Shown: piece after piece, positions 48,863 to 54,500 of the stretch
Layout: every line of letters starts with the position of its first letter
Numbering within the stretch: the stretch's first letter is position 1
Assembly (NCBI GenBank): GCA_018432615.1
Contig: JAHDSQ010000012.1
Location: 124,001-188,000 of the forward strand
Length of the DNA: 64,000 nucleotides
From: Clostridia bacterium
GTDB lineage: Bacteria; Bacillota; Peptococcia; DRI-13; SM3-B62
Direction: 5' to 3'
Notes under the pieces: model-generated
What the model was told of the DNA's origin: nothing
Database searches by the model: none
Seen by the model: the letters and a program-made list of their open reading frames with translations, nothing else
Translations under genes and position numbers: made by a program

Positions 48863-50329
<1,467 letters not shown>

Positions 50330-50360: not shown

Positions 50361-50388
50361 ACAGAGGAGCAATCCTCTGTTTTTTTAT
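50361..50388 (+). terminator. Rho-independent terminator of guaB
   Basis: ACAGAGGA / TCCTCTGT stem with a GCAA loop followed by TTTTTTT. Confidence 0.92.
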
Positions 50389-50452
50389 TGTGGTATGTGA
50401 CAAAATAATTTACATTATTTGATAAATTGGTCTATATTTTGTCTTATATGTA

Positions 50453-50461
50453 TGTTATAAT
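50453..50461 (+). promoter_or_regulatory. Extended -10 promoter of the Tad-like cluster
   Basis: TGTTATAAT in a very A+T-rich leader, about 80 bases before the first gene. No clear -35. The leader between 50462 and 50542 shows no strong structure. Confidence 0.45.
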
Positions 50462-50542
50462 AAGTAAAACAATGTATATATATGCTATTACTTGTATATA
50501 TTGCTATCATTTTATAGCTTAGAGAGAGGAGGGAAAATAGGC

Positions 50543-51394
50543 GTGATTATTCCACTCATAAATACAATGCTCGTCGGAACTTGGTTTGTTTTTGCCGTAC
50601 TCTATCTGAATCCGACAGCGAAAAAGCCTTTTACCTTATTCTCAAACCGGGATTCTTTGAAAAGATCATCCTACAGATTTAAAATAAAAAAAAGATTACC
50701 CCTCATCACTTCCGCCAGCTGGGTATCTGCCATATTGATATCCATCATGACAGAAAATATTTTTCTTTTAGCGGCAGGGTTGGCTGCAGGAGCCTATTTG
50801 CCGGGTTTTTTCATAGAAAAAAAGAGAAGAGGGCAAAGAATAAGGATTATCACAAAGCTCGTTAGTCCTTTAAGGCTACTGATATCACGTTTGCCGGATC
50901 AGAACAACATAACAAAAGCCATTGAACTTACCCGCAATGAAATCATAGATGATGAGATTCGCAATATCTTTTCAAATTATCTCAAAGATGTTAATATTTG
51001 CGGAAACGTGCATGATGCCCTGCTGAATATGAAAGACTCAGTAAGCCTAAGTAAGTTTGATGTTTTTATTGAATACTTGCTGCAAACACACTATGAGGGT
51101 TTTACAAAAGAATCGCTTAATGCTTTGAGCAAATCCGTCGAAGCAATAGAATTTGATTTAAGAGCCATTGAGATTGTCAACGAAAAAAGCCGCACTAAAA
51201 AAAGAAATCTCTATACTGCCTTGGCGGTATCCTGGATGTTTCCCGTTATTCTTTCTTTTGCCAATACAGGTCAGCGCAATGTTTATCTTCATACCACAGC
51301 CGGAAAGATTCTAATTCTTTTCTATGTTGTCGGATCCCTGTTTGTTTATCTCAAGGGTGAAGAATACCTCACCTTAAACCTTGATGAACTTTAA
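50543..51394 (+). CDS. TadB-like type II secretion F-domain membrane protein
   Basis: A 283-residue inner-membrane platform protein resembling TadB. From GTG 50543 (GAGGAGGGAAAATAGGC upstream) it has an N-terminal hydrophobic helix (VIIPLINTMLVGTWFVFAVLYL), a second hydrophobic region (about 60-90), a cytoplasmic helical F-domain (about 110-225) and two C-terminal helices (ALAVSWMFPVILSFA, ILILFYVVGSLFVYL). In Tad systems TadB and TadC form the platform on which a secretion ATPase drives assembly of thin pili. Divergent; call based on topology and on the gene pair. No such ATPase gene is in the cluster. Confidence 0.7.
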   Translation: MIIPLINTMLVGTWFVFAVLYLNPTAKKPFTLFSNRDSLKRSSYRFKIKKRLPLITSASWVSAILISIMTENIFLLAAGLAAGAYLPGFFIEKKRRGQRIRIITKLVSPLRLLISRLPDQNNITKAIELTRNEIIDDEIRNIFSNYLKDVNICGNVHDALLNMKDSVSLSKFDVFIEYLLQTHYEGFTKESLNALSKSVEAIEFDLRAIEIVNEKSRTKKRNLYTALAVSWMFPVILSFANTGQRNVYLHTTAGKILILFYVVGSLFVYLKGEEYLTLNLDEL

Positions 51395-51407
51395 GGAGTT
51401 GGTATCA

Positions 51408-52313
51408 TTGCTGATGATAGTCTGGTCATACATAATGCCTTTCATCCTTGCCGCATGCCTAACAGGCCTTGTGGCAAAAAAACTACTACCTGACAAAAAA
51501 GCACATCAAGCGATAATAAAGGCTAGGCAGGCAATTATGTCCGAAACCGAATTAGAACTCGCTGCTGAGGGACAAGCAATAAAAACAGTATCGGCCTTAT
51601 TAAGAGCTATACGTAAGTATGCAGAATTAGACGATCTATTAATTGTAGAAATGGGAAATATGCTGCGCTTAATGGGTTCATTGAATAAGCCGGAAAAGGA
51701 ACTGGCACGCTATATCGTTCGCGCTATAGGTGGTGCTGTTCCAATTATCATTGTTCCTATTTTAACAGGCTTTGAAGGCTACCTTCTTCTATATCCGCTT
51801 GCCGTGGCTATATTGGTGCTCCATCAATATAAGAGCCTAAAAAAACAGTTTAATCAGTGGCAAAAGGATATAATTGTGGATCTGCCCGCCCTGATCGATA
51901 AACTGAGGATCAGTTTTTCCTGTGGTAAAGATTATGTTTCGGCATTTATACAGGTTCGTGAACTATCAGGTTTGAGGATGAAAACCGTTATTAACAACTT
52001 AATAAATGATTTGCAATATTTAAGACCTGCCTTAGCTCTTGATTTTTTCGCGGAATCCTTTAACCTGCCTGTTGTAAATAAGTTCACCTCTGCCGTTAAA
52101 ATAGCTGTTGAACATGGTTATGAGGCCGCAGAAAGCTATTTTGCCGCAATTGAGGATGATATTTCAGAAATTAGGAAGGTTGCTATTGAGGAGAAGACAA
52201 AATCAAAGCCGGAAAAGGTCGTTCTACTCTATTTGATTATTATCAGTTTGTCTGTAGGGTCATTACTGATTAAAGGATGGGAAATATTTAACGGGTTAAA
52301 TACCATAATGTGA
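51408..52313 (+). CDS. TadC-like type II secretion F-domain membrane protein
   Basis: Second platform protein, 301 residues from TTG 51408, which is well spaced from TTAAGGAG overlapping the previous stop. It has an N-terminal helix (MIVWSYIMPFILAACLTGLVA), two central helices (AVPIIIVPILTGFEGYLLLYPLAVAILVLH), a cytoplasmic F-domain with DIIVDLPALIDKLRISFSCGKDYVSAFIQV, matching the TadC/GspF core, and a last helix (VVLLYLIIISLSVGSLLI). Coupled to the TadB-like gene and followed by the pilin-like gene. Confidence 0.78.
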   Translation: MLMIVWSYIMPFILAACLTGLVAKKLLPDKKAHQAIIKARQAIMSETELELAAEGQAIKTVSALLRAIRKYAELDDLLIVEMGNMLRLMGSLNKPEKELARYIVRAIGGAVPIIIVPILTGFEGYLLLYPLAVAILVLHQYKSLKKQFNQWQKDIIVDLPALIDKLRISFSCGKDYVSAFIQVRELSGLRMKTVINNLINDLQYLRPALALDFFAESFNLPVVNKFTSAVKIAVEHGYEAAESYFAAIEDDISEIRKVAIEEKTKSKPEKVVLLYLIIISLSVGSLLIKGWEIFNGLNTIM

Positions 52314-52328
52314 AAGGGAGGAAAAAAA

Positions 52329-52496
52329 ATGATTAACATGAAAAATTTCATCGCCGACGAAAGGGGAGAAATGCTGGGAACTGTGGGATGGATGGCAATT
52401 GTTGCGACAATTCTGGTGCTGGTCCACGGACTAATTGCAGGATGGCTGCCGGGCTTCATTCAGAGGATTTTTAACCAGATGGATGCCCTTGTTTAG
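52329..52496 (+). CDS. Small Flp pilin-like membrane protein
   Basis: A 55-residue protein reading MINMKNFIADERGEMLG, then a hydrophobic helix (TVGWMAIVATILVLVHGLIAG) and a short tail. A charged start with DERG directly ahead of a single hydrophobic helix resembles type IVb (Flp) prepilins, which are cleaved after the Gly. The usual Glu at position 5 of the mature protein is Thr here. The ATG is preceded by GAAAGGGAGGAAAAAAA. Lying between TadC-like and CpaB-like genes, it is the likely structural subunit of the system. Confidence 0.65.
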   Translation: MINMKNFIADERGEMLGTVGWMAIVATILVLVHGLIAGWLPGFIQRIFNQMDALV

Positions 52497-52517
52497 GAAA
52501 GAGGGAGGTAGTGAAAA

Positions 52518-53261
52518 TTGCGCAGATTGACAAGAATAAAAATTTTTAAGACCGTCTTGCTCATAGCCACCTTTCTAATGGTGTTCACTGTTACTTTTAT
52601 GATAAACAGAACATATATCAGAAAACACACCGAATTAGTAGAAGTTGTGGTTGCCGCCAATAAGCTTCCACCATATTCTTTGGTAACTAGGGACGATCTC
52701 ACTTTATCTAAAAGACCGCGTTCTGTTGTCAGTACTGAAGCCGTCCGTGATTTAGAGTTTTTTAGAACCGAAAAAAGCTACTATATAGAGGAACTGGGAT
52801 TTGGCAAGGGTGATATTATATCCCAGGACCGCATTTTCGAAACAGAAACCTCGGAACTAGGCAAAATCGTCAAACTGGTGAATGAAAACAAGATGCTATT
52901 ATCTGTCAGTACTAACCTTGTCAGAAGCTGTGCAAATATGGTAACCACAGGTACTTATGTTGATCTTATTGTTTATCTCGATGGTAGAGATCAGGACGAT
53001 AGTGATACTATTATTAGCCCAGCGGAAGACGCCCGTCTTTCTAACTTGTTAGTTGTTGCCACCAAGAATTCCGAAGCCTCCGGAATCGAAGAGGAGGGAC
53101 GTAATGCTATTCCTGCCGTTGTTACCTTTGAATTAACAAGGGACAAGATGGATGTAGCAAAAGTGTTGGTTAAATATAACGAGAAGGGCAGTATTTATCT
53201 TCTGCCTGTGGGCTATAGCGGAGAAACTGACAAAGGATGTTCAATCGGAAAAAAATCATGA
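52518..53261 (+). CDS. CpaB/RcpC-like SAF-domain protein
   Basis: A 247-residue protein with an N-terminal transmembrane helix (about 10-30, VLLIATFLMVFTVTFMI) and an extracytoplasmic SAF domain (about 40-105, VVVAANKLPPYSLVTRDDLTLSKRP), followed by a RcpC/CpaB-type beta domain (LSVSTNLVRSCANMVTTGTYVDLIVYL). In Tad pilus systems this protein helps pilin glycosylation or secretion through the envelope. It starts at TTG 52518 behind GAGGGAGGTAG. Part of the Tad-like cluster. Confidence 0.78.
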   Translation: MRRLTRIKIFKTVLLIATFLMVFTVTFMINRTYIRKHTELVEVVVAANKLPPYSLVTRDDLTLSKRPRSVVSTEAVRDLEFFRTEKSYYIEELGFGKGDIISQDRIFETETSELGKIVKLVNENKMLLSVSTNLVRSCANMVTTGTYVDLIVYLDGRDQDDSDTIISPAEDARLSNLLVVATKNSEASGIEEEGRNAIPAVVTFELTRDKMDVAKVLVKYNEKGSIYLLPVGYSGETDKGCSIGKKS

Positions 53262-53311
53262 GAGAAAAACCGTCTACCAGACGGACATGTAAACCATGGG
53301 AGGTATGTATT

Positions 53312-53623
53312 ATGAAATGGAAAGTCAAAGAAGGACAGATTGTTATTGCTGGAAGAATCGGAATGATTGAGAAAAAAAGCGACAGTTTTTTTATTGTTTC
53401 CATTGCCAATAGGTTTAACAAAGATGATACCAAATGGGAGCATGTGGCTTTTGCCAGCCCAAAAAACGGGGATGGCTATAAATACGCTGAACTAGCGGAA
53501 AAGTATATGGTAATTGGACAATATATTACAGTTGTCTGCAATGAAAGAGAAAACGGAGAGTACAAAAATCTCTACGCCACTGCTGTTGAATTGGGTCCAA
53601 AACCATCAAAAAATAAAGAATAG
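53312..53623 (+). CDS. SSB-like OB-fold protein of the Tad-like cluster
   Basis: A 103-residue soluble protein from ATG 53312, with ATGGGAGGTATG upstream. The pattern GQIVIAGRIGMIEKKSDSFFIVSIANRF, then DTKWEHVAFA, YAELAEKYMVIGQYITVVCNERE and YKNLYATAVELG follows the strand order of a single-stranded-DNA-binding OB fold (VxLxGRL..., F.LAVNR, W..CVAFG, AE...KGxxVxVxG). The acidic C-terminal tail of true SSB is missing. The ORF is open further upstream but without a ribosome binding site. A DNA-binding protein next to a pilus-like system could hint at DNA uptake or transfer; this is inference. Confidence 0.6.
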   Translation: MKWKVKEGQIVIAGRIGMIEKKSDSFFIVSIANRFNKDDTKWEHVAFASPKNGDGYKYAELAEKYMVIGQYITVVCNERENGEYKNLYATAVELGPKPSKNKE

Positions 53624-53717
53624 GTTATCTATATGTTAGATTGTCGGCATAGAATTTTTGCTCTTGAATAAATATGCTTACAAAAGAACGCTCCTTTTAA
53701 AAAAGGAGGAATGCCTT

Positions 53718-54500
53718 ATTTCTGTTTTAATACTTTCCAAGAAGAATCTGGCAAGATATCTACTCGTTCTGGTTATAACAATAACAGCCATCAGCATATT
53801 CAGTCCCTCTCTTAAACAAACAACGCAAGAGGTTATTGCTGTTTTAGTCTCAGGGCAAAGACTTGTACCTATATATGCCGTAGAAACGAAGGAAAAAGTT
53901 GTGGCCATATCTTTCGATGCAGCTTGGGGCAGTACAAGGACGCAAGATATATTAAAAACACTGGCCGAAAATGATATCAAAACAACTTTCTTTCTCACGA
54001 ATATCTGGCTCAAAAAGTACCCCGAATTAGCCCGGCAAATTGTTGAGGAAGGACACGAAGTTGCACTGCATTCAGCCTCTCATCCGGATATGAGCAAACT
54101 GTCTGTCGCCGAAATAAAAAAGGAACTACAGGATAATGGGAGCATGATTAAGGATATTACAGGCCAGTCCCCTGTACTTTTCAGACCGCCCTTTGGCGCG
54201 TACAATAACATACTTCTTAAGACCGCCGAAGATTTAAGCCTCATCACAGTACAATGGAGCGTAGACTCACTTGACTGGAAAAACTTATCGGCAGATGAAA
54301 TATATACACGAGTAACTGAAAGAATAACACCAGGGGCCATAGTTCTTTTCCACAATGATGGTAAAAACACGCCCCAGGCTTTGATATCTATCTTAAATCA
54401 CCTGAAAAATGAAGGATATTCGATTGTTCCGATTTCACAGCTTTTACATAAGGATAACTACTATATCGACCATCAAGGGCTTCAGCGGCTCAAGGAGTAA
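53718..54500 (+). CDS. PdaB-type sporulation polysaccharide deacetylase
   Basis: NodB-fold deacetylase resembling PdaB, needed for stable spores in B. subtilis. It has an N-terminal signal/anchor helix (ARYLLVLVITITAISIF) and motifs ISFDAAWGS (catalytic Asp), HSASHPDM (metal-binding His pair), RPPFGAYN and ITPGAIVLFHNDG. A strong AAAAGGAGGA at 53701-53710 precedes an in-frame ATT at 53718 by 8 bases, giving 260 residues starting (M)SVLILSKKNLARYLL. The upstream canonical options, TTG 53658 and TTG 53664, have no ribosome binding site. The gene lies between the Tad-like cluster and hisC. Confidence 0.85.
   Translation: MSVLILSKKNLARYLLVLVITITAISIFSPSLKQTTQEVIAVLVSGQRLVPIYAVETKEKVVAISFDAAWGSTRTQDILKTLAENDIKTTFFLTNIWLKKYPELARQIVEEGHEVALHSASHPDMSKLSVAEIKKELQDNGSMIKDITGQSPVLFRPPFGAYNNILLKTAEDLSLITVQWSVDSLDWKNLSADEIYTRVTERITPGAIVLFHNDGKNTPQALISILNHLKNEGYSIVPISQLLHKDNYYIDHQGLQRLKE

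Follow-up and report, generated by a model that had tools for sequence, protein, structure and literature searches.

A block of five genes in a clostridial genome very probably represents part of a Tad (type IVc) pilus operon whose genes became spread among three loci in an ancestor of its genus, with a CpaF ATPase encoded at a remote locus driving a single pilus. The block lies within a stretch of 64,000 nucleotides (the window; C32:124001-188000) of a 3.16 Mb genome in 70 contigs. The case is built on the gene content and complementarity of the pieces, on orthology, intact reading frames and purifying selection, and on both the ancestral site of the operon and an empty target site.

The tad block between guaB and a deacetylase gene

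The five genes are tightly packed on one strand at positions 50543-53623, downstream of a guaB terminator, as the initial annotation had described them. guaB (48875-50329, +) forms the left flank and is separated from the block by the terminator stem-loop (50361-50380, +), whose stem and T-run are conserved in the second species of the genus (G001). The first two genes encode a TadB-type (50543-51394, +; 283 residues, GTG start) and a TadC-type (51384-52313, +; 309 residues) inner-membrane platform protein. They are followed by genes for a 55-residue major-pilin candidate (52329-52496, +), a 247-residue CpaB/RcpC protein with a SAF domain (52518-53261, +; TTG start) and a 103-residue protein (53312-53623, +). 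A polysaccharide deacetylase gene (53673-54500, +), the neighbour of guaB in relatives, forms the right flank. No RNA elements were found, and TadA/CpaF, TadZ, a prepilin peptidase and TadE/F are all missing from the cluster, as had been recognized from the sequence.

Four of the five genes are core Tad-pilus parts, and the labels first given to them (TadB-like, TadC-like, pilin-like and CpaB/SAF) are supported by profiles, a structural model of TadB, PF16976/TIGR03177 and operon position. The CpaB assignment is firm, with matches to PF16976 (6e-8) and TIGR03177 (3e-17, under the curated cut-off of TIGR03177). Pfam gives no direct match for either TadB or TadC; in profile-profile comparison their family profiles match the TadB/TadC paralogs encoded in the same genome (E 7e-9 and 1.7e-13). 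The TadB profile also matches the TadC reference, as is expected because the platform proteins are homologous. Compared with the PDB, the AlphaFold model of TadB (pLDDT 76) has cytoplasmic domains from EpsF, OutF and PilC among its top-ranking hits (Foldseek probability 0.99-1.00, with E values of only about 0.15-0.9). The paralog comparison, the TadB model and the conserved TadB-TadC order together support the identification of both as platform proteins.

The pilin candidate carries a K/R-G-E/D...GW motif and lacks the canonical Flp pilin processing site, G/XXXXEY as defined in PMC4322843. No aligned member of its family has a Glu at +5, the G-E/D and GW elements being present instead; its size and operon position fit a Flp pilin, and orthologs occupy the same operon position in the loci of relatives. 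The missing Glu is a feature of this Tad subtype and is independent of the operon split.

The product of the fifth gene had been called SSB-like. It has no match in family searches, and the sole match to PF00436 in the genome is the genuine SSB. Against that protein, hhalign gave a probability of 0.6% (one genuine SSB in the profile) and shuffle z-scores lay at chance level (-0.7 to +0.6), so that an SSB identity is rejected on sequence and the proposed ssDNA binding finds no support there. Structure prediction yielded a model too poor to use for the 103-residue protein (pLDDT 40); its strand-strand-strand-helix-strand-strand order is similar to that of an OB fold, but at this confidence the similarity carries no weight. 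Among the genomes searched, both species of the genus have the protein, and the one other occurrence is in a relative (G005), where its gene (L120:7573-7890) sits in a different, T5-like tad locus, flanked by two minor-pilin-like genes. It thus recurs at Tad loci in two contexts and two genera. A mobile origin of the gene was considered and rejected after searches of plasmids, phages and viral contigs gave no hit.

This recurrence, together with the requirement for Tad pili in the transformation of Micrococcus luteus (PMC4322843), might favour a cluster acting as a DNA-uptake device, its last gene supplying an ssDNA-binding protein. The intact operons of relatives, however, are without the 103-residue gene, and the protein shows no SSB similarity by any of the three comparisons; we can give this explanation hardly any credence.

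The remaining pieces in the genus

A genome search for CpaF/TadA and prepilin peptidase genes, as the initial annotation had advised, located a matching CpaF on contig C60 and four PF01478 prepilin peptidase genes elsewhere, none of them linked to the three fragments. The CpaF gene forms part of a TadZ-CpaF-TadE-TadF unit behind a helix-turn-helix protein (L021:9687-13352), beside a different, complete tad locus. TadE starts no more than 40 bp after CpaF ends, and no remnant of TadB or TadC lies in the gap. In the genus of the window, the protein immediately upstream of TadZ-CpaF (L021:9687-10235) carries helix-turn-helix domains of the LuxR/sigma-region-4 type and may regulate the split system.

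This CpaF (P0006; PF00437, E 1e-33) is 74-77% identical to the CpaFs of intact operons in four relatives (G003, G004, G005 and G010), whereas other CpaFs in the same search reach 27-37%. In the tree it is nested among the CpaFs of intact operons and separated from the T1/T2/T3/T5 paralogs of its own genome (99/99). Near the genus, the trees of TadB and TadC have too little resolution for a test of strict co-evolution with CpaF. In relatives, CpaF is preceded by an ortholog of the putative TadZ gene on C60, whose product has only weak AAA_31 and CbiA matches; of the two 140-residue proteins after CpaF, TadE matches DUF4320 (PF14208, 2.8e-10) and TadF no family. The description of a system without an ATPase is consequently true of the local cluster and false of the genome. 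The suggestion of an ATPase borrowed from elsewhere was right as to place, but the enzyme belongs to the system itself, being a CpaF from the same lineage of operons.

The third piece is a gene for a 460-residue protein next to uppP, found on contig C41 of the window's genome and on C37 of G001. In the latter, the window-type block (C42:99.7-102.8 kb, +) and the TadZ-CpaF-TadE-TadF unit (C42:149.2-152.3 kb, -) lie ~46.5 kb apart. In the window's genome, the ends of C32 and C60 share an exact terminal overlap of 127 bp in the orientation predicted by G001 synteny, from which we infer a distance of ~49 kb between the two blocks. The three-way split is present in both of the two available genomes of the genus. 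At the C60/C32 join, a gene pair encoding copper amine oxidase-like N-terminal domain repeats and a CARDB-like protein (L021:13578-16094 and L023:16942-19280) seems to be duplicated in the window's genome and is single in G001.

Six genuine T2SSE-type ATPases are encoded in the whole genome, which also holds at least four further tad-type loci: L018 (C66), L019 (C8), L022 (C35) and L023 (C32:213-222 kb). At least three of these look complete, and the one on C35 adjoins ParA/ParB-like genes and looks mobile. With so many loci, another CpaF could in principle serve the platform of the window.

The intact operon and the course of its break-up

Using TadC as a query against 60 relatives, we recovered strong hits from 21 further genomes, with a single exception members of the same order, and read 20 of the neighbourhoods. 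A single operon recurs, in the order 460-residue protein, TadZ, CpaF, TadB, TadC, small pilin, TadE, TadF and CpaB, sometimes with a prepilin peptidase. Outside the genus, CpaF lies directly upstream of TadB in 17 of 17 loci with enough contig; in G012 and G015 the contigs end before the CpaF position, and in G005 the contig stops within TadC and so truncates the operon. Pilin, TadE, TadF and CpaB come after TadC wherever the contig reaches, with CpaB placed between TadC and the pilin in G003. The first gene of these operons encodes a conserved protein of about 440-460 residues without a family (L138:7665-8981; L050:4291-5667). The five-gene order of the block is kept in G001; other relatives have the single intact operon.

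These comparisons bear on the suggestion of a separate, minimal type of machine, having no ATPase or minor pilins of its own or using the ATPase of an unrelated tad system. The cluster does lack an ATPase, TadZ and a minor pilin, and other CpaF genes do exist in the genome. Yet a CpaF of the matching lineage and exactly the missing genes (TadZ, TadE and TadF) are kept in both species, and relatives always link a CpaF of the C60 type to these platform genes. We therefore regard a minimal machine as very unlikely.

Across relatives, the arrangement of phosphatase, small gene, guaB, deacetylase, aminotransferase, mbl and decarboxylase genes is mostly conserved. guaB and the deacetylase gene are adjacent, without the block, in seven of them (G002, G003, G004, G005, G007, G009 and G010) and separated by one unrelated gene in G006. 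The block is thus an insertion that we saw only in the genus of the window. The guaB gene of G010 (C6:26460-27908; L112/L127) is interrupted by a single TAG in frame, which may reflect an assembly error. In G007, G014 and G023 the intact operon likewise lies behind uppP, and we take this place as the ancestral site. Repeats bounding the block amount to short matches of the kind expected by chance, and no transposase marking the insertion was found among the open reading frames of the window. A single inversion as the cause of the split is rejected: with TadE-TadF remaining beside CpaF, and TadB, TadC, pilin and CpaB relocated, an internal block must have been displaced.

In the proposed course of events, the 460-residue first gene would have been left at the ancestral site beside uppP, TadZ-CpaF-TadE-TadF would have come to lie beside the different, complete tad locus, and TadB-TadC-pilin-CpaB, with the 103-residue gene, would have been inserted between guaB and the deacetylase gene.

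Retained function and relation to known systems

All genes of the pieces are intact in both species of the genus. Between the two, dN/dS is 0.20 for TadB, 0.12 for TadC, 0.10 for the pilin and 0.27 for CpaB, and 0.12, 0.03, 0.13 and 0.09 for TadZ, CpaF, TadE and TadF, respectively (guaB control, 0.04). The eight recognized genes are under purifying selection. The 103-residue gene is looser (0.42, on few sites), and the 460-residue gene is 93% identical over its full length. The ~100 bp compared upstream of TadB (50409-50509, +) contain 2 differences, at a synonymous divergence of about 0.2, and the window block probably has a promoter of its own in this region. Here TTTACA-18-TATATT (50409-50438) is a consensus match only, promoter-scan hits being at chance level. 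A conserved promoter-like sequence, TTGACA-17-TAATAT, precedes the HTH-TadZ-CpaF unit.

Intact frames, dN/dS and the conserved upstream regions of both blocks argue against silent remnants, which the initial annotation had considered alongside a full tad locus elsewhere; such loci do exist, but these copies are intact and selected. Operon break-up can accompany decay, and the loose constraint on the 103-residue gene would fit three decaying pieces of a broken operon without a working product. Given every frame intact in two species, the low ratios of the eight recognized genes, the conservation upstream and that of the 460-residue gene, we consider decay extremely unlikely.

Most likely, the products of the three loci continue to form a single Tad pilus of the monoderm type, powered by the remote CpaF; that they assemble together and yield a surface pilus is inferred from the genes. 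In a working scheme drawn from knowledge of the Tad family, the CpaF of the C60 piece would power the TadB/TadC platform of the window block. One of the four prepilin peptidases encoded apart from the fragments would process the small pilin, which would be extruded as a thin pilus, and TadE/TadF, which would serve as minor pilins, with CpaB at the pilus base and TadZ responsible for placement. No PF00263 match to a secretin was found in the genome, as expected for a monoderm; secretin is a Tad component of diderms only. Since none was detected, the machine would be of the monoderm type. Adhesion is the most likely role for such a pilus, as a default guess, with secretion and DNA uptake as alternatives. 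We think it unlikely that the dispersal was selected rather than accidental, with separate promoters allowing the motor half to be regulated separately or shared with the adjoining second pilus, and with the 103-residue protein as a new, lineage-specific Tad accessory factor.

The window system shares with Tad/Flp (type IVc) pili the CpaF ATPase, two platform proteins, a putative TadZ-like ATPase, a small pilin, two minor pilins and CpaB. It differs in occupying three loci instead of one, in a pilin without G/XXXXEY and in having no detected secretin, and is a diverged Tad subtype of Peptococcaceae-like Clostridia. A single locus is usual for Tad systems, if not strictly defining, and is thought to favour their horizontal transfer; the three-locus break-up of a normally single-locus machine is rare. 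The break-up can be reconstructed, since the genomes display the intact operon, the gene left at its ancestral place, both of the relocated pieces and an unoccupied target. Detection based on clusters may mislabel split Tad systems as ATPase-less or minimal.

In a survey, Tad systems were almost exclusively single-locus (PMC6668835). In Micrococcus luteus, two distant loci, tad-1 and tad-2, are both required for one Flp pilus and the prepilin peptidase is unlinked (PMC4322843). That organism resembles the window system in being Gram-positive and in its distant loci and unlinked peptidase; its loci, however, are each near-complete, whereas those described here complement one another and derive from one ancestral operon. 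Among published systems, Kil of Myxococcus xanthus comes closest, a split Tad system forming one working machine from an ATPase cluster and a separate cluster with platform, CpaB and pilin, which its authors termed a unique situation (PMC8460266). The window system has the same separation. Kil belongs to a diderm, has a secretin and keeps its pseudopilins with the platform, whereas the window system is monoderm and keeps TadE/TadF with the ATPase; as far as tested, the two are not related by descent. The window case, of which we found no earlier description in the open-access literature, is a separate monoderm split along a line similar to that of Kil, with both the ancestral and the empty site visible.
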